Shown here: positions 20,794-54,667 of the stretch, piece after piece
Layout of the letters: every line of letters starts with the position of its first letter
How positions within the stretch are numbered: position 1 is the stretch's first letter
From: Mesostigma viride
Taxonomy: Eukaryota; Streptophyta; Mesostigmatophyceae; Mesostigmatales; Mesostigmataceae
Reading direction: 5' to 3'
Length of the DNA stretch: 64,000 bases
NCBI GenBank assembly: GCA_009746045.1
Contig: RPFO01000213.1
Coordinates: forward strand, 8,049,978 to 8,113,977
Program-made: the position numbers and the translations under genes
The notes under the pieces: model-generated
Told to the model about the DNA's origin: nothing
What the model saw: only the letters and a program-made list of their open reading frames with translations
Databases searched by the model: none

Positions 20794-20850
20794 CACTATA
20801 CTTTTCGTCCGAGGGTGGTAAAAAGCATCCGAGGCGTAAATTACGAGGTG
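20794..20850 (+). repeat. Left terminal inverted repeat (CACTA type)
   Basis: Starts CACTATAC and pairs with 54611-54667 over about 57 bases. Contains GGTGGTAAAAAGCATCCGAG and the first copy of the TAAATTACGAGG subterminal motif. Confidence 0.8.
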
Positions 20851-20929
20851 GTAATTTACCGTCAAGAATACTCTTACAGTTTAGATACTACGTCGTAATC
20901 TGTCTCGTAAGTTACGAACTAGATCCGAG

Positions 20930-21375
20930 ATGAGATCCGACGTAGTAATTTACCAGGTAGTAATACCTATTGGCTATATTTGGAATAAACGTACACCTAT
21001 TTACCTGGAAATTTACCAGGTAGTAATTTACGAGGTAGTAATTTACGAGGTAGTAATTTACGAGGTAGTAATTTACGAGGTAGTAATTTACGAGGTAGTA
21101 ATTTACGAGGTAGTAATTTACGAGGTAGTAATTTACGACGTAGTAATTTACGAGGTAGTAATTTACGAGGTAGTAATTTACGAGGTAGTAATTTACGACG
21201 TAGTAATTTACGCTGTAGTAATTTACGACGTAGTACTCTACGAGGTAGTAGTTTACGAGGTAGTAGTTTACGCTGTAGTAATTTACGACTTAGTACTCTA
21301 CGAGGTAGTAATGTACGATGTAGTAACGTACGAGGTAGTAATTTACGAGGGAGTAATTTACGAGTTGGTAAACTA
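20930..21375. repeat. 15-bp subterminal tandem array
   Basis: About 25 units of GAGGTAGTAATTTAC, some with GACG or GCTG variants. In CACTA elements such clustered subterminal motifs bind the element's own DNA-binding protein, and by position this array could do the same. The array reads as a repeated VVIYE peptide on plus, a by-product of the repeat. Confidence 0.85.
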
Positions 21376-21660
21376 CGTGCAAGTTGTAACTTAAGATGTA
21401 GTTGTGTAGTATATATTTTGTTTTTAATTTGTGCAATGTCCAGTTTCATGAAATGAGCCTAAAAGAGTTTATTATTTCATATTTAAGCATAAAACAAAGT
21501 CGCATTCACTTCAATTCACCAATATGTCTTCATTCTCACATTTCAGCCGATGTCCTTGTCGCATTTATAATACATTGAAACTCTAACACAAGACATCAAG
21601 GAGACAACCATCGCAGGCCAGAAATCGGGAGAATCCGGACCATGGTAGCACAAGACATGA
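21376..21660. other. Spacer, nothing recognised
   Basis: AT-rich spacer between the subterminal array and the stop codon of the first minus-strand gene; probably includes its 3' UTR. Confidence 0.4.
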
Positions 21661-23219
21661 TCAGATAACCAAGTCGGCTGATGACATCCTTAAATATTTA
21701 TTGGCTTTGTTATCATCCATTGGATTGCGTGACAAACTCGCTCGAGGCACCGATGGGTGGGGTCTTCTACAAAGGTGCTGACTGGGGCTGGCCCGGTGCC
21801 GAGTGCGTGACATCCCCGCTCGCGGCGCCGATGGTGTGGTCTCCTCGGCAGGTGCTGATGTGCGCTCGCTTGGTGCGCTCGAGGCGCCGATGCTTGCGCG
21901 GGTGCGCGAGGATGTGCTTGCGTCAGAGTAGGGCCACGGGTTGTTTATGTTGTCGAACAAGACACGCGTTGGCACATGCCGGGCTGAAGCACGCGTCCTC
22001 GCCACCTCCTTGAAACATTGGTCCACGTCGTCCCACTCGCGCCTTGGCCCATTCCGCATCACGATGCCTGATGCCTCAGCGGCCTTGCGCACCTTCTTCT
22101 TGTCCCAGCACTTGGAGGCGATGTCTTCCCAATCTTCCCACAGCTCAGGCCGCTTGTCCCGCACCTCCTGCTTGTGGTGTCACACGGCAAGTACATTCAT
22201 TTTAACCGTGCATGCATTGAACAAACAATATAAGTCATTGTTGGCATACAAAAACTAAATGTAGTGACATGCAGTAGGCCTATGTACCAATGTGTTAAAG
22301 AAAGTAAGCGCATGCCACGAAACAATGATAAGAAGGCTGCTTACCTGCACCGTGAAGTGCAACATCTTCAGATAGTACAAAAGTACCACGCGGCAGAAGT
22401 CCTCCTTCAGCCATGCTGGAAGGTCGGCGTACTTCTTGATGCGATTGGTGGTGGCCGTCCCCACCAACCACGGCGTGTAGTCGTCAACACACGCGTGAGG
22501 CCAAACTTGAACAAGTTGGACCGGTGGTTGGCCAGGCGCTTGATCAGCGCAGCCCGGACTTGAACGTAATCCTCCGCAGGAACCGAGTCGGCGGGGCTTC
22601 TCACGATGCCCGACTCCTGGAAGAACATGGCGATCGCGCCACGCAGACCCATCTCCCTGACGGACCGCTCCTGGTCCAGCTGAACGGCTTGCCCGACGTC
22701 AGGGCGAATGCTCAGGCAATGCCTGGAGAGGTGTTCGACAGCTGCCGAAAAAGCTGGGGTCGTCTTCTGCAAACGTGCAATGTGCAAGATAGAGAAAGTG
22801 CGAAGTTAGAAATCTGGAATAATGAATCGTGTAAAGCAAAAAAGTTCAGCAAATAAGCTATATAATGCGTAATGTGCAACCCACGAAATTTTGGGCAGTT
22901 TGGTGCCCAGTCGCGTCATGAGACTGGCGACGTCTTGTCTCAGCCGCCACCTCCTGCCTGAGGCCCTCCTCCGCCCTGTTGGCCGCGATTTGCAAGTTCC
23001 TGCCGGTGGTGGCCGGTGCCTCCGGGCCATATCGTCGTCCTCGCCGGAGGACGACGAGGAAGAGGAATCGGATTCGGATTCGGATTCGGAGGAATCAAGT
23101 GGCGGCTTTTCTTGCGCCGCCGGCCCATGTCCTCCTCCTCCCGCGACATCATGGCCTTCTTCTTGAGCTTGGGCGCCATAGAAACTGATGAGCTGCGCGT
23201 AAACGTTAACTGGAGTCAC
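21661..23219 (-). CDS. Hypothetical spliced gene, left partner of divergent pair 1
   Basis: No family is recognised. The protein starts near 23179 (MAPKLKKKAMMSREEE, basic and charged), passes a Ser/Glu/Asp-rich stretch, and has a helical middle at 22787-22480 (AIAMFFQESGIVR, VRAALIKRLANHRSNLFKFGLTRV). The next part is PWLVGTATTNRIKKYADLP and FCRVVLLYYLKMLHFTVQ, ending at a good donor (GTAAGC, about 22344). The last exon near 22170-21661 has RPELWEDWEDIASKCWDKKK and a Ser/Pro/Arg-rich tail to the stop at 21661. One frame change is needed near 22480 and the start region is spread over two frames. It lies inside the giant element, head to head with the transposase, with an 85-bp repeat array between them. 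A DNA-binding or accessory role is guesswork. Confidence 0.5.
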
Positions 23220-23404
23220 CTACGGTGGTGAAGACGTGAAGGCGCACTTTCAAATTTCGCGTGCACTCCTGGTGCACTGTCAAATTTCGCGTACACACGT
23301 GGTTGCAGCCATCCGACGGCTACAACCCCAGTGGTCAGGGGCAAACCAAACATCGCACGGTACACGTTCTTGCGGCATCGCTGTCAGGTCACCCTATAAC
23401 GCGG

Positions 23405-23905
23405 CAACCCGCTGTTATACTGGCGGCAGTTGTGTACCACCCCCCGCCTTCCCACGGCAGGTACGCAGCGACTCGCTGTTGTGCTGGCTGCAGTTGTGTA
23501 CCACCTGTACGGTATTTGTGTACCACCCCCTCCTTCCCACGGCAGGTACGCAGCGACTCGCTGTTGTCCTGGCTGCAGTTGTGTACCACCTGTACGGTAT
23601 TTGTGTACCACCCCCTCCTTCCCACGGCAGGTACGCAGCGACTCGCTGTTGTCCTGGCTGCAGTTGTGTACCACCTGTACGGTATTTGTGTACCACCCCC
23701 TCCTTCCCACGGCAGGTACGCAGCGACTCGCTGTTGTCCTGGCTGCAGTTGTGTACCACCTGTACGGTATTTGTGTACCACCCCGCTCCTTCCCACGGCA
23801 GGTACGCAGCGACCCGCTGTCGACCTGGCTGCAGTTGTGTACCACCTGTACGGTATTTGTGTACCACCCCCCTCCTTCCCGCGGCAGTTGTGTACCACCT
23901 TCGGT
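23405..23905 (+). repeat. 85-bp repeat array 1, in divergent spacer
   Basis: Five full units and partials of an 85-base repeat with core CACGGCAGGTACGCAGCGAC, CTGGCTGCAGTTGTGTACC and CTGTACGGTATTTGTG. Successive CACGGCAG starts fall at 23453, 23538, 23623 and 23708. It lies between the minus gene starting near 23.2 kb and the plus transposase gene. The same unit recurs at 33650-34160 (inverted) and 49030-49510. No stop codon occurs in any of the six frames through most of the array. Confidence 0.9.
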
Positions 23906-24044
23906 TTAGTTAGGTATTGGTATAAGCCTCGTGTTGTAATTGCTGTACGTCCATGGCGTTTGTTGCAACTGGAGGTGTATACAATATTAATGGGACGACA
24001 CTGCATGGCAACGATGCGCACGGAATTGTCAGCCTGACAAGCAA

Positions 24045-27000
24045 ATGAGCTGGCTGACTCGTCGATCTCAGGCATATTACAAGTCCCCCCAAAAGTCGTT
24101 CGTAGGTGAGGCCATTGAACGTTCTCGTCGTCAGGCATCCCTTCTCGTTCCCCGATATCGGTCCACAACCGCTCGTCGCGCGCCCCAATGTCGGTGCCTC
24201 CTGGTCCGTTCCCAGCGGCGGGAACGACGGAGCCAAACGGCGAAGGCTGTTTGGTGAGCCACGCCAGGAATGCCCGCAAGGTGAACAGCTGTTGAAGACC
24301 GCCGAAGCTGTTGAAGTGGCTGAAGTGGATACACGGTCGCCGGAGCCCGATGCGGCGGGCATGGAAGGCGTAGAGCCTGCTGAGCCGCGCCCTGATGACT
24401 CAATGGAGGAGGAATGGGGGGCGATGGCGGAGGAGGAGTTTACGGCAGACGGTGGGGCAGGGGGGGCGATGGCGGAGGAGGGGCTTACGACAGACGGTGG
24501 GGGAGGAACGGCTGGTGATGTTGAGGCCGGCGCCGGCCGTGCATCAAGAAACCCATGGGCATGGTCTAAGCCGTTGTCTGGGAACGCGGATTTTACACAG
24601 GCTTCGCTTTTCTGCATAGCCACGGAGTTTGGTCTTCCTGATAAGTGCATCGAAGCGTTTCAGGAACTGGCGAAGCACCCACAATACAGTGTGACCAGCC
24701 ACGGGGAGTTCGGCGTGGCTAGGAGACGGTCATTGGAGAAGGGCCTGCCCCTTGCGGACGCACTGACTGTGAATTGGGTCCCAGCGGAGGCAGAGGGCGA
24801 TCCTTTGCGTGAGGCAGTCAAGTTCACTTACATCAGCATACAGTCAACGCTATCCGCTCTGCTGCAGAATGAGTCGTTCACGGGGAAACTGTTACTAGAA
24901 CACGAGATGAATGAGGATCGGCGTGTGTGGACTTTCAATCAGACCCAGTTTTACAACACCCATCCAACAGTTCAACAACAGGAGGTGCAGCTTCCCGCCT
25001 TGGCAGCAAGTTCCAGTGAGAAGCGGCAGAGTGTCGTCCGCATTGGGGACACCATCATGGTGTTAATGGACAACAACAAGGGGCAGCGAAAGCGAGAAGA
25101 ACTTTGCCTTGTCCGCGCTGTCTTCATGCAAGTAAACGCTGACGGGACTCGTGAGCCATGGGCGAAAGTCCGGTAAGTGGCACGGATGGTGCTTTTGTGT
25201 CGATGTACACTCATCATGATATGCCCTTGGGATTGCACATGCTGAGTTAATTGCATTCTGCTGAAAACAGATTGGTGTTGTCCGGGCTCCCTTGTTGGTT
25301 GGTACCAGTTGACCACTATAAACTGCCGTAATGGGCATGCATCCGGGCCAGTGCAAGCATGGTTATTAAACTGGGTTGTGGGAAGTGCAATGTTTGCACC
25401 ATATATCAAGTATGATGACAGTGTTTATGCAGCAATGTGGTGTGTTTAGAGACCAAATAATGTCGTAGCCTTTTTGGTCCTGCATGAGCGCAAAGTTCCG
25501 AACACTATTTTCCCGAGGTTAGCCACTCCTCGGCATCCTCGGCATCCTAAATTGAGACCACGCCTGCGCAGGATACACAGAGTGCACTACATTTGGTGGG
25601 AGGATATTGACGTGTGCACGTCCAGCACGCTTGGATGGATCTAGTATTGTATATTGATGACAACGCCTATATATTTGCCCGCCGTCATGATGCCTGCAGG
25701 TTCTTCTACCGCGCAAGGGATTGTCCGGGGGGGACCGTACCGCGGGATGCCGATCGTGTCAGTGAGGTCTTCTGGACGAAGCATGAGCAGGAGATCTCTT
25801 TACTGAACTACGGGGGTCACATTGACGTGGTTGGCGTCCGTAAGTGGAGGAAATTTGCCGAGGCTGACCGAGAGGGCGGGCGAGTGTTCTTCATGCGCAG
25901 GTCGTACAACCTGTCCCCGGACAAGCCTCGGTACAAGAGGCTGAGATTCTCTAGATGGGAAGCCGAATTCCGCTGTTACCGCCCTTCTAAGTCTGGTCTA
26001 CCCATCCTATATTTGGTAGTGGCGTTGTGGGATGACTCATTTGAGGAGTATCTCCATCGGCATGGGACGCTGGAAGCGCATTTGTTCACTGTTCTGAACA
26101 TCGAGCGCGCCGACAACAAGTCAAGAGACATGATCTTCCCCATCACCGTGAGAGATACACATGTGCCACGAGAGGCAGTCCTTGAGTGTCTTGTGGAGGA
26201 CATGGATGCGATGGCAGAGGGCGTGCCCATGCGTGTGAAGTTTCCCAAAACGCCAAGTGAGCTTTGGGAAATCCGTGTCGCGAACCTGAACGTGATGGAT
26301 TCGGCCGCCCGCAACGGCGCGATGGGGCACAAGGGTTGCACCGGCGACAAAGTGAGTGATGTTGTCACGTAGCTTGGTTCGGGGTGCTGCCCATGTGACC
26401 TTGATTCATTGGGAAGCTGTGTTGGTGTGGTATCACCGTAACCATCAGCCTTCTTTTATTTCTGCGTACCTTGGTGTGCGGCGCATTGTGGGTGTGTGCG
26501 CCACTGCAGGGATGCCCCTTTTGCAACGTTCACCACGACGACTGGGCGGATGCGACGGTGGACGTGGCGGAGTACATGCGCAGTGAGAAGCAAACGGCGG
26601 AAATATTGGAGGAGATGGAGGGCATGGCGACGGCCACGGCACGGAAAGAGAAGGCGAAGGAGACCGGGGTGATGTATCAGCCGCTGTGGCCTTGGCGGGA
26701 TCTTCGATTCTTTGACCGCTACCGGCAGTATCCGATGGATATCTTTCACAATCTGACGTTGGGTCTATGTAAGCAGGTGGCTCGCTACCTCGAGGAGGAT
26801 GGAATTCCCACTCGCCAGCACCCGGAGTTGGATGCTTGGGTAAGCGCACACCCCACGCGCGTCGGGAGCCGGCTGCCGCAGGGGAAAGCTTTTACCTTGT
26901 ATCCACATTACAAGGGAATGGAGCTGCTGACCCTGCTGTTCCAAATGCCTTTTGCACTTCCCATGCTGCTGCTGAGGAGGCGGAATGAGGGAGATGATAA

Positions 27001-28594
27001 GGAGAAAAGGAAGGCCCGGCGGATCAGCAAGATGGTGATGCACCTCGCCAAGTGGGCGCAGATGATGCTTGGTCCCGTTACGTCTCCAATCTACAACTTG
27101 GCTGCGGACAACGTCTACGCCACTTTTCAAGAGTGTTTCGGCACCTTGTGGCCGCGTGGCAGCCTTGCAGGAAAGGGTCCTGGGGCAATGGCTGAGGCAG
27201 CGGATGGCGACGAAAAGAAGAAAAACGCGAGAGAAGAAGAAGAACGCGGAGAAGAAGAAGAAGAGGATGGCACGCCAAGACAATGCCGCCAGCCATAACG
27301 TCCACATACCGCGCCATGCTTTGGCACAGACTGACGATGTGGGTCGTATCTGGTCCTTGGGCCCGCATGAATTTGAGGGGTACCACTTATTCCTGAAATC
27401 TCTCATGGAGTCGATGGCCAAATGCCACAGCAAGGAGCCGGGGCGTTACTTGCTGCAGAAACTACAGGGCTACTTGGCGTGGCAGTCCATGCTGGTTAAG
27501 GAGACATCCCAGCTCGATGAACGCGTGCTGCAAACCTTGCAGGAAAGCAGGATGTTCAACAAGCTGTATCCCAAAGCGTCCGCGACTGGTAGTGGCGCGA
27601 GTGGCGGTCCTTCTGGGCGGGAGGTGTGGGTGCGGGAAGGGGCGACTTTTCCAACGGTCATACACGAGCGCTGCGCGTTGGGGCGCATCGAGCAGGTGAG
27701 GAAACGCATGGGCGCTGTTGCTATGGCTGCGCTGGCGCTAGGGCTAGGGCATTCCTTGGTGTGCTGGGCCGACCCAGCATTTCCGTTCATATGCCCAGGC
27801 TAACAACGGCACTTGTGTGTTTTGCATGGGGTGCTGTGTGTGTGCAGGTCATGGGGGGCATGCCTTGCGGCCGTAACCCTAAGTCAACACCTACGTTGGC
27901 CGAAATTGGCGCTGACAAGCAGACGGTGGACGAGCTTCTCGCCCCGCTGGGCTGTCCACCCTGGGATGAAGCAACTGGCAGCGTGAAGGTTTATGCTAGT
28001 GCAGTAGTCGGTGCCAGGACCATTACGACTGGGGAGGTCAGGTGCTTCCACACTGATGCATACCCGGCAGGGCAAGTGGCGACAGCAGACTCATTGGCAT
28101 ACCAGGCGGCGGACAATGTGGACGCTGAATTTTGGTTTGCTGAGGTTGGCACCATCTTCATGCTGACGCCTGCTGAGGGGGCCATGGGGAGCATGTGGTT
28201 TGTCCCGATTTGGTTTGAGTCAGGGGATGCAAAGGACGTTCAGGGCAAGCCCATGTTCAACATGGACGAAACTTGGACGGACTGTCCTGTGTTCACCAAA
28301 GACATGACACTGTCCTCGCAGTGGAAAGCCACGGGGAAGTATCCACAGCCTCTGTCCTACCTGGGGTCACAGGTCCGACTGTTGCATCAGTGCTGGCGGC
28401 GTGGTTACGAAACCAAATGCAAAGTAAAGCATGTGGCGGCACGTGTAGGTGACACCACATCAGAACCAGTCCTACAGGTGAAGCACGACCACCTTGGGAA
28501 CAACCACTACGTGCTCGATGCGTTTGATTGGGCGTGCCCAGCGTACTATCGTGACCTGCACATGGGGGGCGTGACGGACCAGCATGGGAAACGA
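24045..28594 (+). CDS. DDE transposase, Tnp2/Plavaka-like, spliced
   Basis: The gene starts between an ATG at 24045 and one near 24361; I cannot fix it. The first exon has a Glu/Gly-rich region, then a helical domain (FTQASLFCIATEFGLP) and ends at donor CG|GTAAGT (25173). A central exon (25.6-26.35 kb) has SRWEAEFRC, YLVVALWDDSFEEY and IFPITV. A phase-0 intron 26352-26509 (GTGAGT...CTGCAG) leads to GCPFCNVHH, YPMDIFHNLTLGLCK and HYKGMELLTLLFQMP. The CPxC and D-x-F-H patterns recall Tnp2 (CACTA) and Plavaka/KDZ transposases. After a frame change near 27250 comes HEFEGYHLFLKSL. A second phase-0 intron, 27696-27847, joins the last exon (VMGGMPCGRNP...), which stops at 28594. The acceptor for the exon near 25.6 kb is unresolved. 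It would cut and move the element. Confidence 0.6.
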
Positions 28595-28653
28595 TGACCT
28601 GCACAGGATGGGCGTGTCAGATAATCACGGCATTTTGTAACGTAGGGAGGCCA

Positions 28654-32494: not shown

Positions 32495-33544
32495 TTACAC
32501 AATCACTGGGCAAACGCTATCTGCGAGACCCTGGTTGCCCAGTCGCCTTGCCGTGCTGATGCCCTTGAAAAAAATGCGGCGATTTTCCACCTGGTACGCG
32601 GCACCAGCATGCACATGTGCTCCATGCCATAAAACAACATCACCAGGATTGAGCATCACCTCAGTTTTTCCCTCCCCCCTCTTGGAGATGTCCCTCTTCC
32701 TATAATGGCGGATACTATTGTCGTACGAAACCCAACGTGTGTCGGGTTGTACAGCGATGATGCAACTTACTGGGAAGTATACCTCCCATGCCAAAACTTC
32801 ACGTGTAAGATCGGAATGGGGCCCTTGTTCTTTGCAGTTAGCCAGGCTTCGGAGCACCAGCAACTCACGTGGCTTAGGCACGTAGGACATGTCCAGCGCA
32901 GCATGCAGGATCTTGACCGCCAATCCCACGACGAGCTTCCCAAACGGGCTGTCTTCGTCGATAAGGGCTTGGCTACGTTGCTTTGGAGGGAATGAAAACG
33001 TCTTGGTGTTCTCGTTGTACTTCCGAAAAATTCTGTCAAATTTAGTATCCGGAATGTCTTGCGCAGCATTCAGCATCTGCACGCGTACTTCCTCGCTTAC
33101 GATGCCTCGTATGACAGTGTATCCCCTCTCCCTGATATCCGCCGCACACTTCTGCTGTAAAGGGGTTTCGGCAATGTTCCTCTCACGCAATGCCACGTTT
33201 TCAATCGCCTTTTCCCCGGCATTCTTCCGGTTGCCCACACGGTGGTTCTCTTCGGCTTTCAATGCGGCGGGCGTTTTTTTCTTGGCAGGAACCTTCTTGG
33301 CCGCCTCCCGCCTTGCTTTTTGCCTTTCCGCCTGCTGCTTCCTATATGCCAGCAATCCACCAGCCCTCTTGATAGCAGCTTTCTGGTCGATGTCGCGCCA
33401 CCTGTTTGCCTTCATGATTTTGGCTTGCATCTTCTTCATGGCTTTGCACGCCTTGGCGACTTCCTGCTCACTTGCCAAGTCGGATTCCAACATTACTACG
33501 GATTCCATCATAGACCGGCAAAGAACAACAGGGTTCAAAAGCAA
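32495..33544 (-). CDS. 2OG-Fe(II) oxygenase-like protein, left partner of divergent pair 2
   Basis: The first 130 residues are basic and helical ([30 protein letters not shown]), suggesting nucleic-acid or protein contact. The C-terminal half looks like a double-stranded beta-helix dioxygenase. It has GPHSD at residues 241-245 (HxD iron ligands) and [18 protein letters not shown] with the distal histidine at about 310-312. An arginine at about 322 (NRRIFF) lies where the 2-oxoglutarate-binding residue is expected. Such enzymes hydroxylate small molecules, proteins or methylated bases; the substrate cannot be told. TET/JBP oxygenases are known passengers of KDZ transposons in fungi, which makes its place inside this element notable, but I see no TET-specific motif. 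The true start may be 33511. A satellite tract follows the stop. Confidence 0.6.
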
Positions 33545-33649
33545 CCGATAATATGTAAAGGCTGTATCGATCGGGAGGACTTCCGCCGTGCAGCGACAGC
33601 TGTACCAACCTTGAGGACAACATTGACATTATTAATTTACGAGCTGCCA

Positions 33650-34160
33650 GGACAACAGCGGGTCGCTGCGTACCTGCCGTGGGAAGGATCGAGGGGGGTG
33701 GTACACAAATACCGTACAGGTGGTACACAACTGCAGCCAGCACAACAGCGAGTCGCTGCGTACCTGCCGTGGGAAGGAGGGGGGTGGTACACAAATACCG
33801 TACAGGTGGTACACAACTGCAGCCAGCACAACAGCGAGTCGCTGCGTACCTGCCGTGGGAAGGAGCGGGGTGGTACACAAATACCGTACAGGTGGTACAC
33901 AACTGCAGCCAGGACAACAGCGAGTCGCTGCGTACCTGCCGTGGGAAGGAGCGGGGTGGTACACAAATACCGTACAGGTGGTACACAACTGCAGCCAGGA
34001 CAACAGCGAGTCGCTGCGTACCTGCCGTGGGAAGGAGCGGGGTGGTACACAAATACCGTACAGGTGGTACACAACTGCAGGCAGGACAACAGCGAGTCGC
34101 TGCGTACCTGCCGTGGGAAGGAGCGGGGTGGTACACAAATACCGTACAGGTGGTACACGC
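33650..34160 (-). repeat. 85-bp repeat array 2, inverted, in divergent spacer
   Basis: About six units of the same 85-base repeat, in the opposite orientation to arrays 1 and 3 (GGTGGTACACAAATACCGTA, CTGCAGCCAGGACAACAGCG). It lies 100 bases upstream of the oxygenase-like gene and about 220 bases upstream of the plus gene starting at 34380. Confidence 0.9.
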
Positions 34161-40300: not shown

Positions 40301-40576
40301 TCTCAGGATTTCTCAGGATTTCTCAAGATTTGTCAAAAAAAAACTCAGGAGAATCTCAAGAGATCTCAGGACGAATTTTTTCCGACTTCCTAGTGTACCT
40401 GGAGAAGGGTTGTCGGGAACACCGGGGGATGCACTTGTCCCGGACGCCGCGGCGTTGTGTAGGATGATCTGCGACCGCGCAGTGGCGTCGTTGCCCCACG
40501 TGGCGGCTGCGTTGGTTACTGCGGGGGAGGGCTCCTTCGGGCCGCGCATGCTGGCACACATGGCACTGTCTGCTCA
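34380..40576 (+). CDS. 5' exons of large nuclear protein gene, split by a transposon
   Basis: Exon 1 is 34380-34466 (MAAKDCRSVWESQQ...), donor GTAAGT. Exon 2 starts at 34730 after GCACCGCAG, in phase 0, with AQQYERPEQFDQASKRC and a Glu/Lys-rich end, donor GTGAGT at 35019. The next exon begins at 35195 and is broken at 35291 by the 5.1-kb element. Coding resumes at 40395 (PGEGLSGTPGDALVPD, CRMICDRAVASLPHVAAALV) and ends at donor GTAGGC (40577). One frame reads without a stop across the junction when the element and one GTAC are removed. However, splice phase from exon 2 favours a different frame for 35195-35291, so the local structure is uncertain. The likely continuation is at 41878-44395. 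Function of this part is unknown. Confidence 0.5.
35305..35760. repeat. Left CTCAGGA subterminal repeats
   Basis: Dense CTGAGATTTTCTCAGG-type motifs able to fold on themselves. Near 35640-35722 come three copies of a roughly 36-base unit ATCAGGAAAATCAGGACACT. Confidence 0.8.
36002..36946 (-). CDS. Hypothetical protein inside the 5.1-kb transposon
   Basis: The ATG at 36946 starts a 314-residue protein. Residues about 25-150 form a compact domain (SIHINGSNYRTAV, VRYGRITHIL, VLLKVALFDVG, LEGLTLIPLG) of beta-strand character, with an unusual run of charged turns. The last 110 residues are about four copies of a 21-residue repeat (PQATTAPSRSRGKRTVGTLV), basic and Ser/Arg-rich. The folded part loosely resembles the C-terminal exon of the transposase at 27848-28594 in pattern only. 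No catalytic motif is visible, and whether it is the element's own gene or captured cargo is unknown. Confidence 0.5.
   Translation of the reverse strand: MITAAVCGMEPACDEHDSIHINGSNYRTAVADLRQTVRHRNSGVMVYGKEGVRYGRITHILHSFLRAPTEGWSRQVLLKVALFDVGSVKELPLEGLTLIPLGERAPKQDALVLPGSVCSVGFVVDPEYAPEIAIVHCKLPWQMVKETCSAAQHVLSRAAGAQLRTTDVYADMNLQRKVTLCVKRRDMTTRGRSQGNRTAPIDPQATTARMAAEPQATTAPNRSRGKRTVGTLVEPQATTAPSRSRGKRTVGTLVEPQATTAPSRSRGKRTADTLVETHTAAAPNRSRGKSIAASPWQRLVAAHQALMTLLVICR
36947..38817. other. Internal non-coding DNA of the 5.1-kb transposon
   Basis: No frame with protein-like motifs. A duplicated GCCTAACATGGCTG(A/C)TGAAGGCGTT occurs at about 37053 and 37109. Confidence 0.45.
38818..39410. repeat. 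Degenerate CTTGCTTCCTT repeats
   Basis: Irregular units of 30-60 bases built from TTAGTCCCTTGCTTCCTT, TTGCATGCTTGC and GCTGAATTYAATTA. Not coding. Confidence 0.7.
39990..40381. repeat. Right CTCAGGA subterminal repeats
   Basis: Mirror of the left end: TGTCCTGAGATT units at 40030-40160 and ATCTCAGGACAATCTCAGGA units at 40225-40375, running into CCGACTTCCTAGT. Confidence 0.8.
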
Positions 40577-41877: not shown

Positions 41878-44395
41878 AGCTGAGAGGCATCCACATGCAG
41901 GGAGTAACGGCTCCACTTGGGCAGCCAGGACATGCGAGCACTGCCAGGGCAGCCCCCCGAGGGCCTGGCAACGGCAGGGAGACGGCCGAAGAAGCAGGCA
42001 ACTGGGCAGCCCCCCGAGGGCCTGGCAACGGCAGGGAGACGGCCGAAGAAGCAGGCAACTGGGCCGCTCCGCGAGGGCCTGGCAACGGCAGGGAGACGGC
42101 CGAAGAAGCAGGCCACTGGGCAGCCGGGGAGGGCGGCACAGGGGCCGGGGGCAGATGTGGAGGTGGCGGGGACGGGGGGGGACGAGGGAGTTCCAGAGAC
42201 GATGGCGGAGGAGGGGGAGACGGGGGCGGAGGCGGGGAGGAAGGCGGAGGCGGCGGGGACGGGGGGGGACGAGGGAGTTCCAGAGACGAGGGGTGCGGAG
42301 GTGGGGCCGGTGGCGGATGCGGCGGGGAGGAAGGCGGCGGGGACGGGGGGGGACGAGGGAGTTCCAGAGACGAGGGGTGCGGAGGTGGGGCCGGTGGCGG
42401 ATGCGGCGGGGAGGAAGGCGGAGGCGGCGGGGACGGGGGGGGACGAGGGAGTTCCAGAGACGATGGCGGAGGAGGGGGAGACGGGGGCGGAGGCGGGGAG
42501 GAAGGCGGAGGCGGCGGGGACGGGGGGGGACGAGGGAGTTCCAGAGACGATGGCGGAGGAGGGGGAGACGGGGGCGGAGGCGGGGAGGAAGGCGGAGGCG
42601 GCGGGGAGGGGGGCCGGGGAGGAGGGAGATCCAGAGCCGATGGCGGCGGAGGGGGACACGGGAGGGAAGGCGGAGGCGGCGGGGAGGGGGGGGAGGAGGG
42701 AGATCCAGAGCCGATGGCGGCGGAGGGGGACACGGGGGGGAAGGCGGAGGCGGCGGGGAGGGGGGTGGAGGAGGGAGATCCAGACTCGAGGCATGCGGAG
42801 GTGGGGCCGGGGGCGGAGGCGGAGGCTGAGGAAGCGGGGACGGGGGGGGCGGCGGTGGTGGTTGAGTTGTCCTCCACCGATGAGGAGCCTAGCGTCAGCG
42901 TCATTGGGAAGCCAAAAAAGAAGAAGAGGAAGGTGGTAGTGGCGTCGCCAGGGCCGCAGACGAGGAGGAGGCGGGCTGCACAGCAGGCTGCGGAGACGTC
43001 GAACACGGGGGGGAAGGACGGAGATCCAGACTCGAGGGGTGTGGAGGTGGGGACGGGGGGCAAGGCGGAGGCGGCGGGTACGGGGGGGGACGAGGGAGTT
43101 CCAGAGACGATGGCGGAGGAGGGGGAGACGGGGGGGAAGGCGGAGGCGCTGCAGAAGGGGAAGCGTGGTGCGAGGCAGAGAGCGGAGGCGGCGATGAAGG
43201 TAGTGGTGGTGGTCGATCCTCAGGCGAGTGCGGCGGCAGAGGGGACGGTGGGGAAGCCGCCAGGGCCACAGTCGAGTGAGAAGGCAGCGGGGGGGAAGGC
43301 GGGAGACTGCGCCGATCTTCCCCTCGACCTTGCTAAGGATGATGATGATGCAGGGACTGCCAGCCCTGTGGAGATCGATCGCACCACTGACCCGTCATTT
43401 CCGGCAGAGTGTCCTGGTCCCGACGAGGACTGCAGGCACTGCACGAAGAGTGCGAAACTGTTGAGAAAGCACGGTGAGCACAGGGTGAAGGCTGGCCGGG
43501 AGCACACGGGGAGATGGGGGGATTTCAGCTGTGCCCCAGACGCTGCCATCGAGTTTGCCAACGCGGGAGCTGCGGTGGTGTCTGGTGGCGGGGTCGGGCT
43601 AGCACAGCTTCTCACGGGTCGAGCGAGGGGTCGCGCCCATGACCCCCAGCGATGCGAGCTGGGCCTGGTCATCATCCGGTGCATGGTTTATCGCTATCGA
43701 TACAGAGCCGCGCAAGAAATACGAGAAGTGGCAGAAGAGGGTGCACACAGCATGCGCTGATTACCAGCAGAAGAACGTGGGCGAGTGCCTGTCTGCTGCC
43801 AGCTGCTTGACGACTGTGAGTTGGCATCTGCAGGGGTGCGACCTACGCGAAGTAGGATGCACGAGATGTCGCCCCACGGAGGAGCTGCTCGTGAAGCTTC
43901 CTATCGACTGCCACTTTAACGGTGCACGCCTAAGAATGGTGGACACTCCATCATCGAGGCCATCCAGAGGGCGCTGACCCAAGGGTGCGGCACCAACTTT
44001 AAGAGTTTGTGCACCCCTGGGTGCGCGGGTTTCCATGACCCCCCTGTACGAGTCTTCAAGACTGTCCCGACCATGATCCCGGTCGTCGACTTGTTCCAGG
44101 GCCCTCTGCCGGAAGAGACTGCGCACCAACTGCCGGAAGAGATCGTGGTACGCATCACGGTGGGGGGCGAAGAGCGTAAACAGTACGAGGTGACTGCGTG
44201 GCTCTGCGCCGTCCTCGTGTATGACCACCCCAAGCACTGGCAGCTCCTACGGCGCGTTGGCAGGGCCGAGGAGTGGCGTGAAGTGGACAGTTGCTATCAC
44301 GCCAGGTACACCGTGCCCTTGGAAGGTGCAATTGGCGACAGGGCCAAGGACACGCAAGCCTGCATGTATATTGTGGCTGAGGCACACCCTGTTTA
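41878..44395 (+). CDS. 3' part of large protein: acidic repeats, NLS and ubiquitin-hydrolase-like domain
   Basis: Three 48-base repeats (PPEGLATAGRRPKKQATG) are followed by repeats of AGTGGDEGVPETMAEEGE. A classical monopartite nuclear localisation signal, KPKKKKRKV, lies near 42912. Further on come CPGPDEDCRHC and a domain with CHFNG, IIEAIQRALTQGC, LCTPGC, TVPTMIPVVDLF, LPEEIVVRI, Y-E-V-T-A-W, HWQLLRR, EWREVD and a final ACMYIVAE. The zinc-like cysteine pairs, the Y-x-V-T-A strand, the H-W and the closing hydrophobic strand follow the order of USP-type ubiquitin hydrolases. The catalytic Cys box is not convincing (NVGECLSAASC near 43780 is the only candidate). Frame changes occur near 42700, 43690 and 43935. 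The opposite strand is open as a PPSPPPP-rich frame, which I take as a shadow. Stop at 44393-44395. Confidence 0.5.
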
Positions 44396-47040: not shown

Positions 47041-47249
47041 TAATGTGCACATGTGTGTGCATGGGCAAAAGCTGGCTAACTCAATCAAAAGACGATATAA
47101 TAATTTAGTACTTAATAAGTTAATTAATAAGACATGTGCACCGTGTGTACAACAGGCATCAGTAATCACCGATAAGTAAACCAAGGCAACCACGATGTTA
47201 GATCATGGATCCAAGTCGACAAAGCTGCTGTCACGGTATCCTACATGTC
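47041..47249. other. Spacer, nothing recognised
   Basis: AT-rich spacer with TTAATTAATAAGACATGTG near 47110, a motif also seen at 6935 and 46250. Confidence 0.35.
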
Positions 47250-48430
47250 CTAACCCCTGACACGCGGGAGGGGCACCGTGTTCCGTGGTGTCCCTGGAGC
47301 GTTCTCTGGGCAAGGCCTGGAAACAAAAGGCCGAGCATTGCGAAACAACTCCTCCACTTCAGACATCGTGGGTAGCTTGAAAGCAAGGGGGCCCAACCTT
47401 TTGGTGTGGTAATAGACATTGTGACACAAGTTAAATAGCCCTGAATCCACAGAATTCACGAAGAGAGCGCGGCCCTTATGCCGGAACAAGGATACCACCA
47501 TTACAAGGAAGGAGTACACATCATGGTCTCGCTGCGCTGTCACCACCCCTCCTGGCATGCCGGGCTGGTCCACTGTTGCGGGATGCCACCGAGGCTGACG
47601 ATCCTTACCAGCCTGATGCGTGAAAATCCGTTCCCCCCTCTTGTCGCCAGGCCGAGATCTGCAATACGGATTATCGGATGTGAACTTCCTGGCGCCATGG
47701 TGTAGAGAAAATTATCGAGCTTGACGTCATTGTGTATAATGTTAACGCCGTGCAAGCCAGCCAATGCCTTTGCACAGTCTGCAAGGACGCTGGGTGAGCA
47801 AACTTCGAAAAAACGCTGATTTTCCGGGGCATCACGGGCAGCATGCAAGTCACCACTCATTCTCTCCATGACAATACCACCTACTTCACCGCACGTGGAC
47901 CAGAGCCCTTCTACTGCAGGGCAGACCTGCGGGCCAGCTATAGACATGAAACCGGCCTCCTTGGCCACTGCCACAACGGCGGTTATAACAGCCTCCTGGT
48001 AGTTTACCAGCAGCGTGTCTCGTCGAAGGCTTGCCAGCTTTACCACTAGCGTAGCCTCGCCACCTGGTGCACTCGAGCTAGCAGGGATAGCGTATAACGT
48101 GCCATGAGCACCTTTTCCTATACGGTCACCTGACAATTTCACTGCGATGAAATGCGTCAACTTGCTAGCGCTGTGAGAAACCTTTTGATCATAATTCGTG
48201 AGCCGCTGCAATGCAATGCTCCAATCGGACGGTGCATTGGTTTGCAGCTCAACGTCCCTGCAAGCGTGCGAGTCCGCGCCGTTGAACACACGCGACACCC
48301 TATGCAACGCGGTGCATGTGCGCAGTCTGTAAGTCCGTGAATTAAAAGCCTGTCTCGCCCTTAATGCCGACAGGGTTCCCGGCGACAGGTCCTGTCTGTT
48401 GGTCGACATTTTTCTTTTGCAGCTGGCCAT
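47250..48430 (-). CDS. Protein kinase-like gene, left partner of divergent pair 3 (frameshifted)
   Basis: GDRIGKGAHGTLYAI is the glycine-rich loop (about residue 100-114), TLVVKLAS carries the ATP-binding lysine, and GGIVMERM is the hinge. IIHNDVKLDNFLY is the catalytic loop (HND in place of HRD), IADLGLA the metal-binding loop (DLG in place of DFG), and QQWTSPAC the APE-like segment. The frame then stops at 47540. The following frame supplies RDHDVYSFLVMVVSLF, the expected F-helix D-V-Y-S-F. The junction is a G4 run (47546-47549 on plus) and fits one missing base. All main catalytic residues are present, so activity is plausible if the shift is an error. It phosphorylates an unknown substrate. 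The first 95 residues are unassigned. Confidence 0.78.
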
Positions 48431-48529
48431 CGTCGGTAGGTATGAATGATGTCGATGTCCGTGAATTACGATGATACACGAGGTAGTCTATACCTAGGAT
48501 CGAGAGCTTCTTCTTGTATGGCAATGCCG

Positions 48530-49015: not shown

Positions 49016-49029
49016 AATATATAGGTCGG

Positions 49030-49510
49030 ATATTTGTGTAGCACCCCCCTCCTTCCCACGGCAGGTACGCAGCGACTCGCTGTTGTGCTGGCTGCAGTTG
49101 TGTACCACCTGTACGGTATTTGTGTACCACCCCCTCCTTCCCACGGCAGGTACGCAGCGACTCGCTGTTGTCCTGGCTGCAGTTGTGTACCACCTGTACG
49201 GTATTTGTGTACCACCCCCTCCTTCCCACGGCAGGTACGCAGCGACTCGCTGTTGTCCTGGCTGCAGTTGTGTACCACCTGTACGGTTTTTGTGTACCAC
49301 CCCGCTCCTTCCCACGGCAGGTACGCAGCGACCCGCTGTTGTCCTGGCTGCAGTTGTGTACCACCTGTACGGTTTTTGTGTACCACCCCGCTCCTTCCCA
49401 CGGCAGGTACGCAGCGACTCGCTGTTGTGCTGGCTGCAGTTGTGTACCACCTGTACGGTATTTGTGTACCACCTCCCTCCTTCCCACGGCAGGAATGCAG
49501 CGACCCGCTG
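49030..49510 (+). repeat. 85-bp repeat array 3, in divergent spacer
   Basis: Five to six units of the 85-base repeat in the same orientation as array 1, ending about 270 bases before the ATG at 49776. Some units carry GGTTTTTGTG for GGTATTTGTG. Confidence 0.9.
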
Positions 49511-49775
49511 TCGACCCGCTATTGCACTAAACCGCGTGCATCATTGCACATTAGGTGTGGCAGAATATCACCATGCACCCTCCTTCCCACACAAATCTCT
49601 GCTGCCCATGTGCGGCGTGGACATACAACAACAACTACTACAACAGGCTTTTTCCCGCAAATCTCACCACCCGGTTCTCAAGTCGAACGACGACATAACT
49701 TTTACGAGTCCATTTTTCCTCGCATAGTGACTAACTAACTGTATCGCGGCGTGAACACTCCCGCAGACATCTCAG

Positions 49776-51050
49776 GTGCAGGCGGCAGCCTTTGCATTAG
49801 CGGACATGTCGAATGATACAGGGGAGCGGTCCCCCATGAGCTCGGCGGATACGGGATCCTATCCCTCCGACTCGGAGGAGTCATTCCGGTCGGGAGGGAC
49901 ACTGTATTCGACGGAGTCGTTGCCGGCGGTAGTCGAAGAATTTTTGCGGACCCATTGCGATTTGGCAACGGTAACCGAGAATCTGTCCTTATCGCAGAAG
50001 AGCATTGCCGGACGATTACACCGCATGAGGGTTGCTGACCAGCACAGGCCTGATGAGCCGGCATGGTTCGGCCAAGATATGGAGCCCGGAATCCTCGGGT
50101 GCATTGTTGACCTACTCGGCCCCCTGGAACGCGCGAGGGTCAGCGTAATGAGCAAAGAAGTGCGTTTGATAGTGCAGCAGCACAAGTGGCAGATCAAGAC
50201 CGGTATTCATTGGAGGGAGGCGGAGCATTTGGAGGCAGAGTACGGCCCTATTGACGACATCGCAGCACCTACGCGCATGCTCATCACTGGCACCTTATTC
50301 GATCCCACCCGGGCTAATCCCATCAGGAATAACAGCATCACGTTGGAGCTGTCTGCATCCACCCTGGAGGCATACGGCACCACATTTCGCAAGCTCATGT
50401 CGGATGTGAAGTCGCGTCTGCGCCGGCAGCCTCCCACCTGCCTGGGGAACTTGTTCTCGCTTCGCGACATTCCCGCAGACCTGGGCAGTCAGTGGAGCAT
50501 GGAATACGTTGCCCAGTGGCGGCAACATGAAGACGAAAGGCGCGGCCACGACCTGCTGCCCCCAGAGGAAATGGAGAGGCAGCTCGTGGCAGAGTGGAAC
50601 CACGTATGGCAGTCGCCGATCATGTGGGGTCTGTACAGCATTGTGGTCTTCACCAGCTGCCAGGCTTGGGGAGAGGGGTGGGAGTCCGCGGGGCATACTA
50701 GGGACTATTGGGATCGTGCAGGGTGGGCAACTTTGCTGGAGTCCATGCCTACACTTGATCCCGTGGTTCTCGCCGGCGCCGTCTTGTTGACGCACCCAGC
50801 GGCTACCAACGTCCTTAAAGAGCGGTTGCAGGAGCCCTGCACGTTGCGGCTGCTGCGTGGAAGAGGGTCGCACCTGGTTGAGGAGGCACGGACAACGTGC
50901 ATGCGCGACGGCAATCGATTTGGGCGGTCTACCCAGAACACGTATGGGCAGGCAGGACGCTTTCTGGGCGAGTGTGGCCGGTGGCTCTACACTATCAGTC
51001 GGAGTGCCGTCCCGACCCTCATGGGCGTGAAAGTGGTTACTCGTATCTAG
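49776..51050 (+). CDS. Hypothetical protein, right partner of divergent pair 3
   Basis: An uninterrupted frame of 424 residues with an acidic Ser-rich N-terminus (the better start may be 49806, MSNDTGERSP). ILGCIVDLLGPLERARVSVMSKEVRLIVQQ is reminiscent of an F-box (leucine-rich, then two helices) and would link it to ubiquitin ligases, but the match is weak. The rest is helical (YVAQWRQHEDERRG, QLVAEWNHVWQSPIMWGLYSIVVF, LDPVVLAGAVLLTHPAA) and ends with a basic segment. No signal peptide. It is the cleanest frame in the giant element. Confidence 0.65.
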   Translation: MQAAAFALADMSNDTGERSPMSSADTGSYPSDSEESFRSGGTLYSTESLPAVVEEFLRTHCDLATVTENLSLSQKSIAGRLHRMRVADQHRPDEPAWFGQDMEPGILGCIVDLLGPLERARVSVMSKEVRLIVQQHKWQIKTGIHWREAEHLEAEYGPIDDIAAPTRMLITGTLFDPTRANPIRNNSITLELSASTLEAYGTTFRKLMSDVKSRLRRQPPTCLGNLFSLRDIPADLGSQWSMEYVAQWRQHEDERRGHDLLPPEEMERQLVAEWNHVWQSPIMWGLYSIVVFTSCQAWGEGWESAGHTRDYWDRAGWATLLESMPTLDPVVLAGAVLLTHPAATNVLKERLQEPCTLRLLRGRGSHLVEEARTTCMRDGNRFGRSTQNTYGQAGRFLGECGRWLYTISRSAVPTLMGVKVVTRI

Positions 51051-51059
51051 AACACCAGT

Positions 51060-51640
51060 CTTTGTGGATGCGTTTCAGTCAGCTGTGATCGAGTTGCTGG
51101 TGGTTGTTACCTGTGGGACATTTCTTGTGGGGGGAGACTTGGTCCATATCTCAGGCTTGTCTTACATGATGCAGTGGCACTTTGGTGCTGGAGGGTTAAT
51201 TGTGGCCCGGCCTGCCGGTTTAGCTTCAGTGCTCTCATGTCGGCCTTTCCCTTGGCCTGTCGTGGTCTTGTTGTTACCACCTATTGACAGTGCCAATATC
51301 TTTTGACAAGAGCTTTCAGTTATGTCTACTGTTTATTTTCAGGTCGTCTGTGACTGACGCCACATGGGATGAGATAGGAGGTACTCGGCTATCATTGGTA
51401 ATTACTTTAATGCATGCCCATTGGGCCATGCATAGTGTATATTTTTTATGCATGCACGCCATTATGTATCGCTGGGTCCATCCCATCAAATGCTTGTTTA
51501 TTGCCAGGTCTGGTGGAAGTCCGTAAGTACTTGCGTGTCATGCGCATGGGCATGTTTATAGTACTATGCTAATCTCTTTAGAAACATAATTACACGGAAG
51601 TTACAAATCTCATCTGCATCATGCCCCAAGACACTACATT
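51060..51640. other. Non-coding stretch, nothing recognised
   Basis: Probable 3' UTR and spacer; no motif-bearing frame. Confidence 0.4.
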
Positions 51641-51644
51641 AACC

Positions 51645-51895
51645 TATCAAATAAAATTATAACATGCCTCCGTTGGGAGATGATGTAGCACATATTCCTT
51701 GCTGAATGGGTGGAGGTGGGTCAAGCCGCGACATCGAAATAAGGTAACTCTAACCTATCTAGTCTACAAAATCCTAACTACACTTCTCCCCAAAGCGCCC
51801 CTTCCGCTTTGGGGGAGGGGGCTTGCCCACAGGGGCTGGCGTGTCAGCCGGGACATTGGTCATCCACCTCTTCTTGTTCTGCATAGGAACAGCTA
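51645..51895 (-). mobile_element. LINE 3' end fragment
   Basis: Read on minus it encodes MQNKKRWMTNVPADTPAPVGKPPPP and a stop, then 3' UTR, then ATATGTGCTACATCATCTCC-CAAC-GGAGGCATGTTATAA. PAPVGKPPP is shared with the copy at 59.9 kb. Confidence 0.7.
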
Positions 51896-52009
51896 GAGAG
51901 CGAAGAAGTGCGGTGTGGGGACCCCTTCTCGTGGTAATGCGTTACATGTACTCCCCACCGGGCTTTGCTCTTCATGGGTTCATAAAGACAACAATTATTC
52001 AGTAAGAAT

Positions 52010-52110
52010 TTAATAAATTAGGAACATAGATCCGTTGGGAGTCACTGTTACACATGTCACTGTTACACATATATACCTGCAAAGGGGCATATGATTTTTA
52101 ATACATTCTG
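52010..52110 (-). mobile_element. LINE 3' end remnant
   Basis: ATCCGTTGGGAGTCACTGTTACACAT (with GTCACTGTTACACAT duplicated) followed by AAAGGGGCATATG and TTTAATACATTCTGAGCTAC, as in the copy near 58270. Confidence 0.6.
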
Positions 52111-53269
52111 AGCTACAACCTGCACGTGCATGGGTTTAGTTAACTGGCACCTATACTAGAGGCCTGACATGGGGTGGAGCTTCAGTGCTTCCCCGCCTTC
52201 TCCTTCTCCCACACTGGGTGCTCCGCCTCCTTCTTCTCCGGCCCTGCCCGTGGGTGCACCGGCCCCGCCTCCTCCTTCTCCTCACGGGACGATTCGCGCT
52301 CCACGCATGGCAGCAGCATCAGTTAGCACGGGCAAGACATAGCAGTAACCGCGCTATGGCTGTTCTAGCACCAGCCTAGCAGCCTGCCATGATCAGTCAG
52401 CAAACCCACGACAGCTAAACCCTTGGCTGACACAACCAGTCCATGCATCATTAAGTATGGGTACGGGGAAAGCTTCCCGCATATCCATGCCCATATGGAT
52501 GGCAGCAACACAAGGACTGGCACCCTAGCCCCCCCGTGCACACACAAAAACGTGGGTCGTGGCTTCCACGCCCCATCCGTCATGCATGACAGCGCGTAAT
52601 TTACTCGCATTCACACCGGGCTGCATCCCAGCGCCGTTGCTGTCCCCATGTGACACGTCGGCTGATTAAGCAGATACACAGCTGAGTCTGATGTAAACCG
52701 CTAAACCCCAAACCCATGCACACCACAGTCAAGGACGCGTGCATGTCAAGCCATGCCAATTGTGAACCGTACAGCAATTTACTTTTCAAGCCTGAAGAGG
52801 TGTATAGGAGATAGTAGCCTGGAAGAGGTTACAGGGGCACATGTCCATTAGCGAGCGGAACAACACAGCATACACCCTACAAGCGTACCGCACAATGTCC
52901 TCCTGCAATTGTCTGCAGATCTCCCAATGCCGCAGACATCTCCACTGCTCTCATGGCGATTGCAAATGCTTGATGCCGCACCTCTGCTTACAGCAGAAAA
53001 GCTTCCTCCGGGCGAGGCACCTGACTGGAACCAACACCCATTCCTTGGCTTCACAACGTGGCCATGACAGCATCGTGAATCTGCTTCGCCAACGCCCACA
53101 CTTCAGGACCCGCGCCCTGCACCGCCATGGCCACAGGCTGCACCGCTGCAATCGATGCAGCATTCACTGCCTGCGCCGCACCATGTACTGCATGCACGAA
53201 AGCCAATCCTGGCTCGGTTATCATGGTCTTGCCCGATTCCTGCTGCTTCTTCTTCTTCGATGCGGTCAT
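52111..53269. other. Non-coding or unrecognised stretch
   Basis: Several short open frames overlap on both strands; none shows recognisable motifs. The minus strand 53051-53270 may be the 3' continuation of the next gene (TASKKKKQQESGKTM). Confidence 0.35.
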
Positions 53270-53740
53270 GCGCACTTTATACCCTTCCTCTCCAAGCACG
53301 CCTTCAGCACCTGGCTCGTGCGGTGCTGAATATGCTTCTGAAGGCGCGCCTTCTAAACACGAAATGTTGGCAATGTATGATTCCCAAACGGCATGATAGG
53401 CACATAATCAGTCCCATTAATTGCTTTGCGGCAGTCAATGCACCAGAACACCTGTTGAAAAAAGAAGGTTATGCACGCTAGCGATTACCCGCGGCAAGAA
53501 GCAATCAACACGCCTCGCTAACAACTGCAACCACAATGTAATTCATGACGGGCCACTCACCGCTACCCTGCTCTCCTGATTCAATGTCTCCCCATTCTCA
53601 AGGCCTCCATTGTAAACCTCTCCGTCTTCACCATCGTCATCGTCTTCCTCTTCCTCCACTCCGACGTATCCGTGTTTCCTTTTCCTAAGATACCTAGGGT
53701 TGTTCAAGTCGTATGTGCGGCGTTGGCACACTTCCAACAA
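53270..53740 (-). CDS. Hypothetical spliced gene near the right end of the giant element
   Basis: The upstream exon (about 53757-53573) has AAKILLEVCQRRTYDLNNPRYL and a strongly acidic stretch (VEEEEDDDDGEDGE), ending at donor GTGAGT. After acceptor TTCAACAG the next exon (from about 53452) reads VFWCIDCRKAINGTDYVP, with a CxxC pair, then PFGNHTLPTF. The end may continue as RLQKHIQHRTSQVLKACLERKG. Start and stop are unresolved and no family is recognised. Confidence 0.4.
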
Positions 53741-53759
53741 AATTTTGGCCGCCTCTACC

Positions 53760-54570
53760 CATTACCATTTATTCGTACTATCATAACATATCCAGGCGTT
53801 TGAAAAATCATTCCCTCGTTCGAACTTCTACCCCTGGGCGTCCATGACGAGGCAGTCACGACGGGACGCAGATGCACAAAAATAAAACAAGGCGACATCC
53901 CTTCAATCATTGACCAAAAAACAGAATACGCGCAGAACTTGGATTTCAACACCACGCACCCATTACCAGCGAGCACGGCTGGCCTGCAACCGCCATCATT
54001 TCATAACCAGAAGCCAGGGCCCACACTCCATCCCGTTACCTCATCTTCCACGCACGGCTTCCGCTGCTTCCCTCTGCTCTTTCGCATTCTCCGCCAGCAA
54101 CCTCGCCTTCTCCTCGTCCAACAATCCACTAAGAATAAAATCCCCTCTATTGGACGCCATTCAGACGAACTTTGCTAGCGTCTTTTCACCGGCCCCAGCA
54201 CACATAATCTATAGCCGCTTAATGACAACGGCCGACAACGACAACTGCTGAATAGGCGAAAAAGGCTGATAACTACATTTTTATATTTCGCTGCATTTGC
54301 TAATAGACACGCACGTTCTCCCACTTCTCCATTACAATATAATTATCCATCTGGCCGTGTACAGGCAAAGATCCCCGAAGTAACTTACTGAAACGTATCT
54401 TACAGCATCGGATCACTGGCACCTAATCTACAGGTGGTAGATTACCAACCAAGACCCGTCGCGGTAATTTACTCTGTCGGTAATGTACTACCAAAGATGT
54501 GCAGTCGTAACGTTACTTTTACTTACGGCTAGTAAAATTACTACCTATCATCCTACGTAGTAATGATTAC
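53760..54570. other. Right subterminal region of the giant element
   Basis: No gene supported. From 54450 onward GTAATTTAC, GTAATGTAC and CTACGTAGTAA motifs accumulate, matching the left subterminal repeats. Confidence 0.5.
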
Positions 54571-54610
54571 GGCGTTGGATCTCACGCCTCGGATCTAGGT
54601 AGTAAGATAA

Positions 54611-54667
54611 GACCTCGTAATTTACGCCTCGGATGCTTTTTACCACCCTCGGACGAAAAGTATAGTG
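54611..54667 (-). repeat. Right terminal inverted repeat (CACTA type)
   Basis: Reverse complement of 20794-20850; ends ...AAAAGTATAGTG at about 54667. The coordinate may be off by one base. Confidence 0.8.

Follow-up and report, generated by a model that had tools for sequence, protein, structure and literature searches.

Structure of the locus

The window analysed here, a stretch of 64,000 nucleotides from Mesostigma viride (contig RPFO01000213.1), contains a 33.9-kb interval at positions 20794 to 54667 which we consider, with high confidence, to be a mobile unit, namely a giant gene-carrying CACTA-like transposon that belongs to a large family. Between its ends lie a transposase-like gene, an oxygenase-like and a protein-kinase-like open reading frame (ORF), an ORF of 431 amino acids without a family match and a gene that varies strongly from copy to copy, referred to below as the hypervariable gene. 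The edges are inverted termini that start CACTATAC, at 20794..20849 on the + strand and 54612..54667 on the - strand, and the two are identical in 56 of 56 bases. A 25-base probe of the terminus, allowing three mismatches, found two sites in the window, these being the two edges, and none in 100 shuffles. Directly outside the termini, a 2-bp target site duplication is present, with TT at 20792..20793 and again at 54668..54669. An original prediction, made from the letters alone, had described a shared terminus of about 57 bases; this is indeed inverted and perfect, although 56 bases long. It had also pointed out, correctly, that the three flanking bases differ (ATT and TTA), which is explained by the duplication being of two bases only, as the adjoining two agree on both sides.

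Subterminal repeats, which had been proposed for both sides, are real, but their distribution is strongly lopsided. Counting both orientations, the motif GTAATTTAC occurs 20 times in the first kilobase of the element, twice in the last and once elsewhere. Most of these copies sit in an array at 21010..21364 (+), in which tandem-repeat and motif counts give 23.7 copies of a 15-bp unit, AATTTACGAGGTAGT. The right-hand 3.3 kb of the element (51386..54667) is mostly common to shorter copies, named A, D and E below.

Pairing of ends, target site duplications and an empty site

To place the window copy in its genomic context, the 440-Mb assembly of the host was searched with both ends. At least 40 exact copies were found for the 60-base left end and at least 40 for the 100-base right end, and pairing was counted among the 40 left and 40 right ends listed. 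Among these ends, 16 facing pairs lie less than 60 kb apart, one of which skips a neighbouring element, leaving 15 distinct pairs that span 10.4-33.9 kb. When the right ends were placed at random on the shared contigs, facing pairs numbered 0.5 on average and at most 3 in 1000 trials. Only one pair under 60 kb is non-facing, and it links neighbouring elements. It should be noted that 25 of the 40 left ends have no partner among the right ends listed, a number that is uninformative in either direction. When the first five left ends were examined over 40 kb each, a right end was present in four.

The flanks were read at both ends in 15 paired copies, comprising 13 of the 15 facing pairs (the window copy, A, D and ten more, with C224:3088892 and C1:4783518 left out) as well as copies C and E, which have right ends other than those listed. 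Matching 2-bp duplications were found in 14 of the 15: TT for the window copy, CA for A, TA for C, TG for D, GA for E, and the remainder in nine of the ten further copies, in none of which the duplication extends to 3 bp. For copy E, an empty site was found as well, in a related repeat elsewhere on C998, where both flanks are contiguous and GA is present once. The two edges thus behave as a single unit, and the facing pairs, the duplications and this empty site support the giant CACTA-like element that had been proposed. The original prediction had suggested looking for other inverted pairs, of which these 15 are the answer, while copy C carries the same named genes; that the terminus might occur mostly as short stand-alone copies, the case that would have spoken against it, does not hold for the ends sampled.

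Copy C and the two types of element

Copy C (on C667) is 25.9 kb long and is collinear with the window copy from end to end, except for masked tandem arrays and two missing stretches. Its right terminus has one mismatch to a 30-base probe. Across the twelve main matching segments, eight are 93-99% identical to the window and four are 88-91% identical. Relative to copy C, the window copy has a net excess of about 2.3 kb after 29540 and of about 5.0 kb after 35249, in addition to array differences. The second of these stretches (35250-40393, about 5 kb) is possibly a nested insertion; within it lies an ORF at 36005-37042 (-) of 346 amino acids, which contains RSRGKRT-like repeats and is without a family match.

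The window copy and copy C, in which the same named genes are found, are referred to as type I. When 28 left ends (8 and 20) were compared by their inner sequence, five resembled this transposase-bearing type, including B and C, 18 resembled a second, shorter type (type II), including D and E, and five were not classed. Of the type II ends, 16 of 18 are 99.8-100% identical to the reference copy and two are 97-99% identical, as measured over the best-matching stretch of up to 700 bases and with D and E matching themselves in these counts. The five that were not classed (L034, L042, L047, L007 and L001) share the terminus but have an inner sequence not assigned to either type and perhaps represent further subfamilies, L001 being too short to judge. 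Nothing in the 40 kb fetched for each of copies A, D and E matches the transposase region at the nucleotide level, while most of the right 3.3 kb is kept. As judged from these shared ends and the lack of transposase similarity in the three copies fetched, type II copies are presumably mobilised in trans. From Ectocarpus, too, giant families that lack transposase genes have been reported (PMC12477816). An 85-86-bp tandem repeat forms three arrays in the window copy (23430-23887, 33646-34158, which is inverted, and 49031-49511), and sequence resembling it was also found in type II copies.

The transposase gene

The transposase-like gene that had been placed inside the interval was found as exons between 24253 and 28597, all on the + strand. 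The exon at 24253..25172 holds the first part of a BAH domain, the start of the gene not being fixed, and the exon at 25700..26351 holds the rest of this domain and the start of the transposase domain; both were delimited by ORF, splice sites read by eye (GT/AG for the former) and Pfam matches. These are followed by a Plavaka-like exon of 1186 bp at 26510..27695, with a CPFC motif at its start, and by the last exon at 27848..28597, taken from its ORF and splice sites read by eye. The joined exons match the BAH model of Pfam with 30.8 bits, which is exactly its cut-off, and the Plavaka model with 21.0 bits, below the cut-off of 26.3.

The 26510-27695 piece has at least 40 matches in the genome among 52 candidates, these being 98-100% identical and one of them partial. 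Among the 40 matches listed, 33 are 1188 bp long and three are 1185 bp long, so that 36 of 40 have a length divisible by three; the others are the window copy with 1186 bp, two with 1189 bp and the partial match with 862. The frame of the window transposase is thus broken, meaning that the window copy would have inserted either before the frame was broken or by means of another copy. Judged by the length of this piece in the matches listed, copies that fit an intact frame are common. In viral contigs, the 20-base terminus had no matches, and no confirmed relative of the oxygenase or of one transposase exon was found there.

A hypervariable gene

Between the window copy and copy C, the region at 43.3-44.4 kb is more divergent than the sequence around it, mostly through amino-acid-changing differences. 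In the frame of copy C, 51 codon differences are replacements and 3 are silent, with two further codons gapped. The 3' flank differs at 12 of 623 bases, and the stretch just upstream, which itself lies inside the open frame, at 1 of 171. Comparison of 18 copies (the window copy, C and 16 that were fetched) placed the gene at 43290..44393 (+), with its start not fixed; the window copy has a broken frame, and 14 of the 18 copies are open to a shared stop. The gene has at least 40 matches in the genome among 53 candidates. For 24 of the 40 transposase matches listed, a listed match to the hypervariable gene lies within 60 kb downstream on the same strand, at a distance of 7-22 kb in 22 cases and of 45-50 kb in two, and no other arrangement of the two genes within 60 kb was seen among the matches listed.

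For the selection counts, the copies with frame breaks (window, L086, L093 and L100) were left out. Among the remaining 14, of which 13 have an uninterrupted frame across the last 284 codons up to a common stop, the amino acid varies at 67 codons and silent-only variation is seen at 8. With an expected silent fraction of 0.248, 8 of 75 corresponds to a binomial P of 0.002, a value that ignores the relatedness of the copies. If only variants present in at least two copies are considered, 45 codons are amino-acid-changing and 3 are silent. Mean non-synonymous divergence (dN) is 0.059 and mean synonymous divergence (dS) is 0.027, with dN exceeding dS in 87 of 91 pairs. Relative to copy C, the 3' flank (about 595 bases) shows 2-12 differences where it can be aligned, in 10 of 15 comparisons, and the same 10 comparisons show 21-88 differences in about 1125 bases of the gene. 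In 15 copies, all four gametes were found at 1210 of 3570 informative site pairs, which points to shuffling among copies or to recurrent mutation.

As to the protein itself, no Pfam match was found at E up to 5. A PDB match, to the ribosomal protein uS10, reached E 0.27, or 1.4 with a profile, and was treated as due to chance, while a likeness to ubiquitin proteases (deubiquitinase-like) was seen by eye only, with no such match in Pfam or the PDB. Structure predictions from single sequences had a mean predicted local distance difference test (pLDDT) score of 39 and 30, too low for fold comparison. A comparable hypervariable transposon gene was not recognised in the 10 of 155 literature titles that were listed, which is no proof of absence in print. 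In L087, L089 and L096, a small upstream difference, noted by eye, shifts the hypervariable ORF to a different frame upstream, with an in-frame ATG nearby in L089 and L096.

Other ORFs

A single-exon ORF of 377 amino acids at 32498..33628 (-) resembles 2-oxoglutarate (2OG)-Fe(II) dioxygenases. It matches PhyH with 25.2 bits (cut-off 22) and has an HxD...H...R motif recognised by eye. In Pfam at E up to 1, PhyH and Gig2-like models were matched and no TET/JBP model was; in phage records, no match was found. Compared in frame with copy C, this ORF has 9 synonymous and 7 non-synonymous codon differences. The protein-kinase-like ORF, of 315 amino acids, lies at 47543..48487 (-) and matches Pkinase with 32.7 bits (cut-off 31.7); by eye, the domain seems to run on in another frame towards 47250 (window 47250-47560), either through an intron or because of a frame break. 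Both ORFs are present in the window copy and in copy C. A further ORF, of 431 amino acids at 49755..51047 (+), had no family match in a profile search and is ungapped in copy C. For this ORF, the transposase and the right-hand ORFs, the differences between the window and copy C are too few to judge selection. The at least six further genes that had been attributed to the element thus come down to two cargo genes recognised by Pfam and one by its evolution, plus the 431-amino-acid ORF.

Outside the element, copia-like retrotransposon pieces lie at 8277-11649 (-), with RVT_2 and rve matches below cut-off, and a reverse transcriptase ORF with an RVT_1 match lies at 4724-6238 (+).

Interpretation of the element and its hypervariable gene

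We read the pattern of variation in the hypervariable gene as probably the outcome of diversifying selection, as the codon comparisons suggest. Three other explanations of this gene should be weighed. The one that survives best is that the gene encodes an anti-silencing factor like VANC of the Vandal elements, diversified to recognise the non-coding repeats of its own subfamily. High diversity in a gene that shares its element with a transposase fits this, as does the difference in inner sequence beside the left end between the two element types. In plants, moreover, both VANC and KIU, a relative of VANC that bears Ulp1, act on motifs of related elements (PMC13317346). The protein, however, shows no similarity to a Pfam family, and its PDB match is at chance level only, so that we regard such a role as possible but rather unlikely.

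Less likely still is that targeted mutagenesis instead of selection, for example by an adenine-directed diversity-generating retroelement, produced the variation. Changes of two or three bases make up 42% of pairwise codon differences (1058 of 2504), and the gene is more variable than either the alignable flank or the transposase piece; both observations would be in keeping with such a process. Nevertheless, the variable codons are scattered over about 1 kb and do not form one cassette, and 51 of 112 variable columns in amino-acid-changing codons have no A, which disfavours adenine-directed diversity generation in particular. It is also quite improbable that the gene is relaxed or pseudogenised, with frame breaks and misalignment producing the skew artificially. 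Of the 18 sequences, 4 have broken frames, and L087, L089, L096 and L098 have an upstream frame change; yet the 14 open copies on their own give the excess, and relaxed evolution predicts that about one quarter of the variable codons would be silent. Least credible of all is that, in the window, two independent short copies of the terminus face each other by chance at 33.9 kb with ordinary host genes between them, a view that the abundance of ends (586 first-look candidates for the left and 596 for the right) might invite, but which the TT/TT duplication, the collinear copy C, which lies on a different contig and has a TA/TA duplication of its own, and the excess of facing pairs contradict, copy C and the duplications ruling out chance pairing for the family as a whole.

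The two readings preferred here, a mobile element and diversifying selection on one of its genes, have some drawbacks that need to be considered. With regard to the element, one paired copy that was read, the C335 pair (G000:C335:5508115-5521393; L115 and L116), has flanks TC and GA and is the only one without a matching duplication; it possibly represents two recombined copies. The presence of one edge without the other, which the original prediction had named as a second case against it, is at odds with the duplications, but copy B (C998:770588) has a left end and no right end within the 40 kb fetched, and no match to the oxygenase or kinase ORF was found there. A classical transposase of the Tnp2 type would be expected of a CACTA element. 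The gene is transposase-like, but its match is to Plavaka (PF18759), with a score of 21.0-22.3 bits (cut-off 26.3) over profile positions 232-318 of 325, and in Pfam at E up to 1 the joined exons matched no Tnp2 model. The PhyH match of the oxygenase-like ORF rests on a best stretch of 26 residues. With regard to selection, the 18 sequences were chosen to include copies least like the common version and are thus enriched for divergent variants, and the silent count of 3 in 54 between the window and copy C includes codons past the frame breaks of the window copy. In L098, the open frame covers the last 249 residues only. In 5 of the 15 flank comparisons, different sequence is found and the 3' flank is not alignable, and the neutral yardstick is formed by 10 copies, two of which (window and L093) are frame-broken.

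A mechanism that would accommodate these data is as follows. The transposase, with a BAH domain at its N-terminus and a Plavaka-like domain, presumably binds to the subterminal repeats, cleaves at the CACTATAC termini and integrates the entire segment, whereby 2 bp of the target are duplicated. Type I copies, such as the window copy and C, carry its gene together with the 2OG oxygenase-like, kinase-like and hypervariable genes, and type II copies, which keep these termini and the greater part of the right 3.3 kb, would be carried along in trans. The hypervariable gene would be diversified by selection and its variants shuffled between element copies, and its product would most likely meet a partner that itself changes fast, for instance a host silencing factor or parts of rival copies. 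Taken as a whole, the family may be a giant CACTA-class lineage in which one gene is diversified codon by codon over dozens of copies while the transposase stays near-identical, providing a genome-wide, recombination-reshuffled repertoire of variants for an arms race with host silencing or rival transposons. We put this forward tentatively, as an idea that is about as likely to fail as to hold, or slightly more so.

If the gene evolves as proposed, transposon arms races fought through accessory proteins could be tested within one genome. With at least 40 copies, and with an alignable spacer beside many of those sampled, selection and recombination are both measurable.

Comparison with known transposons

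Among the systems most similar to the element are the EnSpm/CACTA elements of red and brown algae, which reach 16-20 kb with 4-5 ORFs in Chondrus crispus (PMC6431247) and up to 15.2 kb in Ectocarpus (PMC12477816). They share with our element the CACTA superfamily, a large size and accessory genes. They differ in that the two type I copies here are 25.9 and 33.9 kb long, with a 2-bp duplication, a BAH-bearing transposase, oxygenase-like and kinase-like cargo and a hypervariable gene. Subterminal repeat arrays are a trait of EnSpm/CACTA elements; here they are mainly on the left. Inverted CACTA...TAGTG termini and a short duplication (2-3 bp in such elements, 2 bp here) are likewise present, while the classical Tnp2-type Pfam model was not matched.

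Plavaka elements belong with CACTA in the CMCT clade, for which target duplications of 2-5 bp are given, and both Plavaka and EnSpm elements that carry dioxygenase genes exist in fungi (PMC12730594). Transposases of this clade have the catalytic residues D, D and E along with C(2)C and H(3-4)H motifs; a CPFC motif is visible here at the start of the 26510 exon. Giant repeats associated with Plavaka in Amoebidium are up to 50 kb long (PMC11244446). Our element is similar in its putative Plavaka-like domain, in its duplication of 2 bp, within the 2-3 bp expected, and in an oxygenase-like gene, as found in some fungal Plavaka families (PMC12730594). Plavaka termini, however, are TGT..ACA (PlavakaA) or CATCA..TGATG (PlavakaB) (PMC12730594), unlike the CACTATAC termini found here, and the oxygenase-like ORF matches PhyH; within the sensitivity of Pfam, membership among TET/JBP-carrying transposons was rejected, as no such model was matched.

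In size, the element resembles KDZ transposons, which include a 31.7-kb active element in Chlamydomonas and reach 30.3 kb in Ectocarpus, where giant families often have further genes, nested insertions and non-autonomous relatives (PMC12477816). It differs from them in its CACTA ends and 2-bp duplication, as compared with the 8-bp duplications of Zisupton (PMC12730594), and no KDZ model is among the Pfam matches of the joined transposase exons at E up to 1, so that KDZ membership was rejected within the sensitivity of Pfam.

VANC and KIU of the plant Vandal elements are transposon-borne accessory proteins that counter silencing in a sequence-specific manner (PMC13317346). These Mutator-like elements belong to another superfamily, and the likeness lies in the accessory anti-silencing role that is suspected here by analogy; VANC and KIU may nonetheless serve as a model for what the hypervariable protein does.

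Relative to the cited literature, the family extends the size of CACTA-class elements from 15-20 kb to 26-34 kb with duplications demonstrated, and units of this length still insert precisely. CACTA ends, a Plavaka-like transposase with a BAH domain, a size above that of the cited EnSpm elements and a gene that is probably diversifying are thus brought together in this family.

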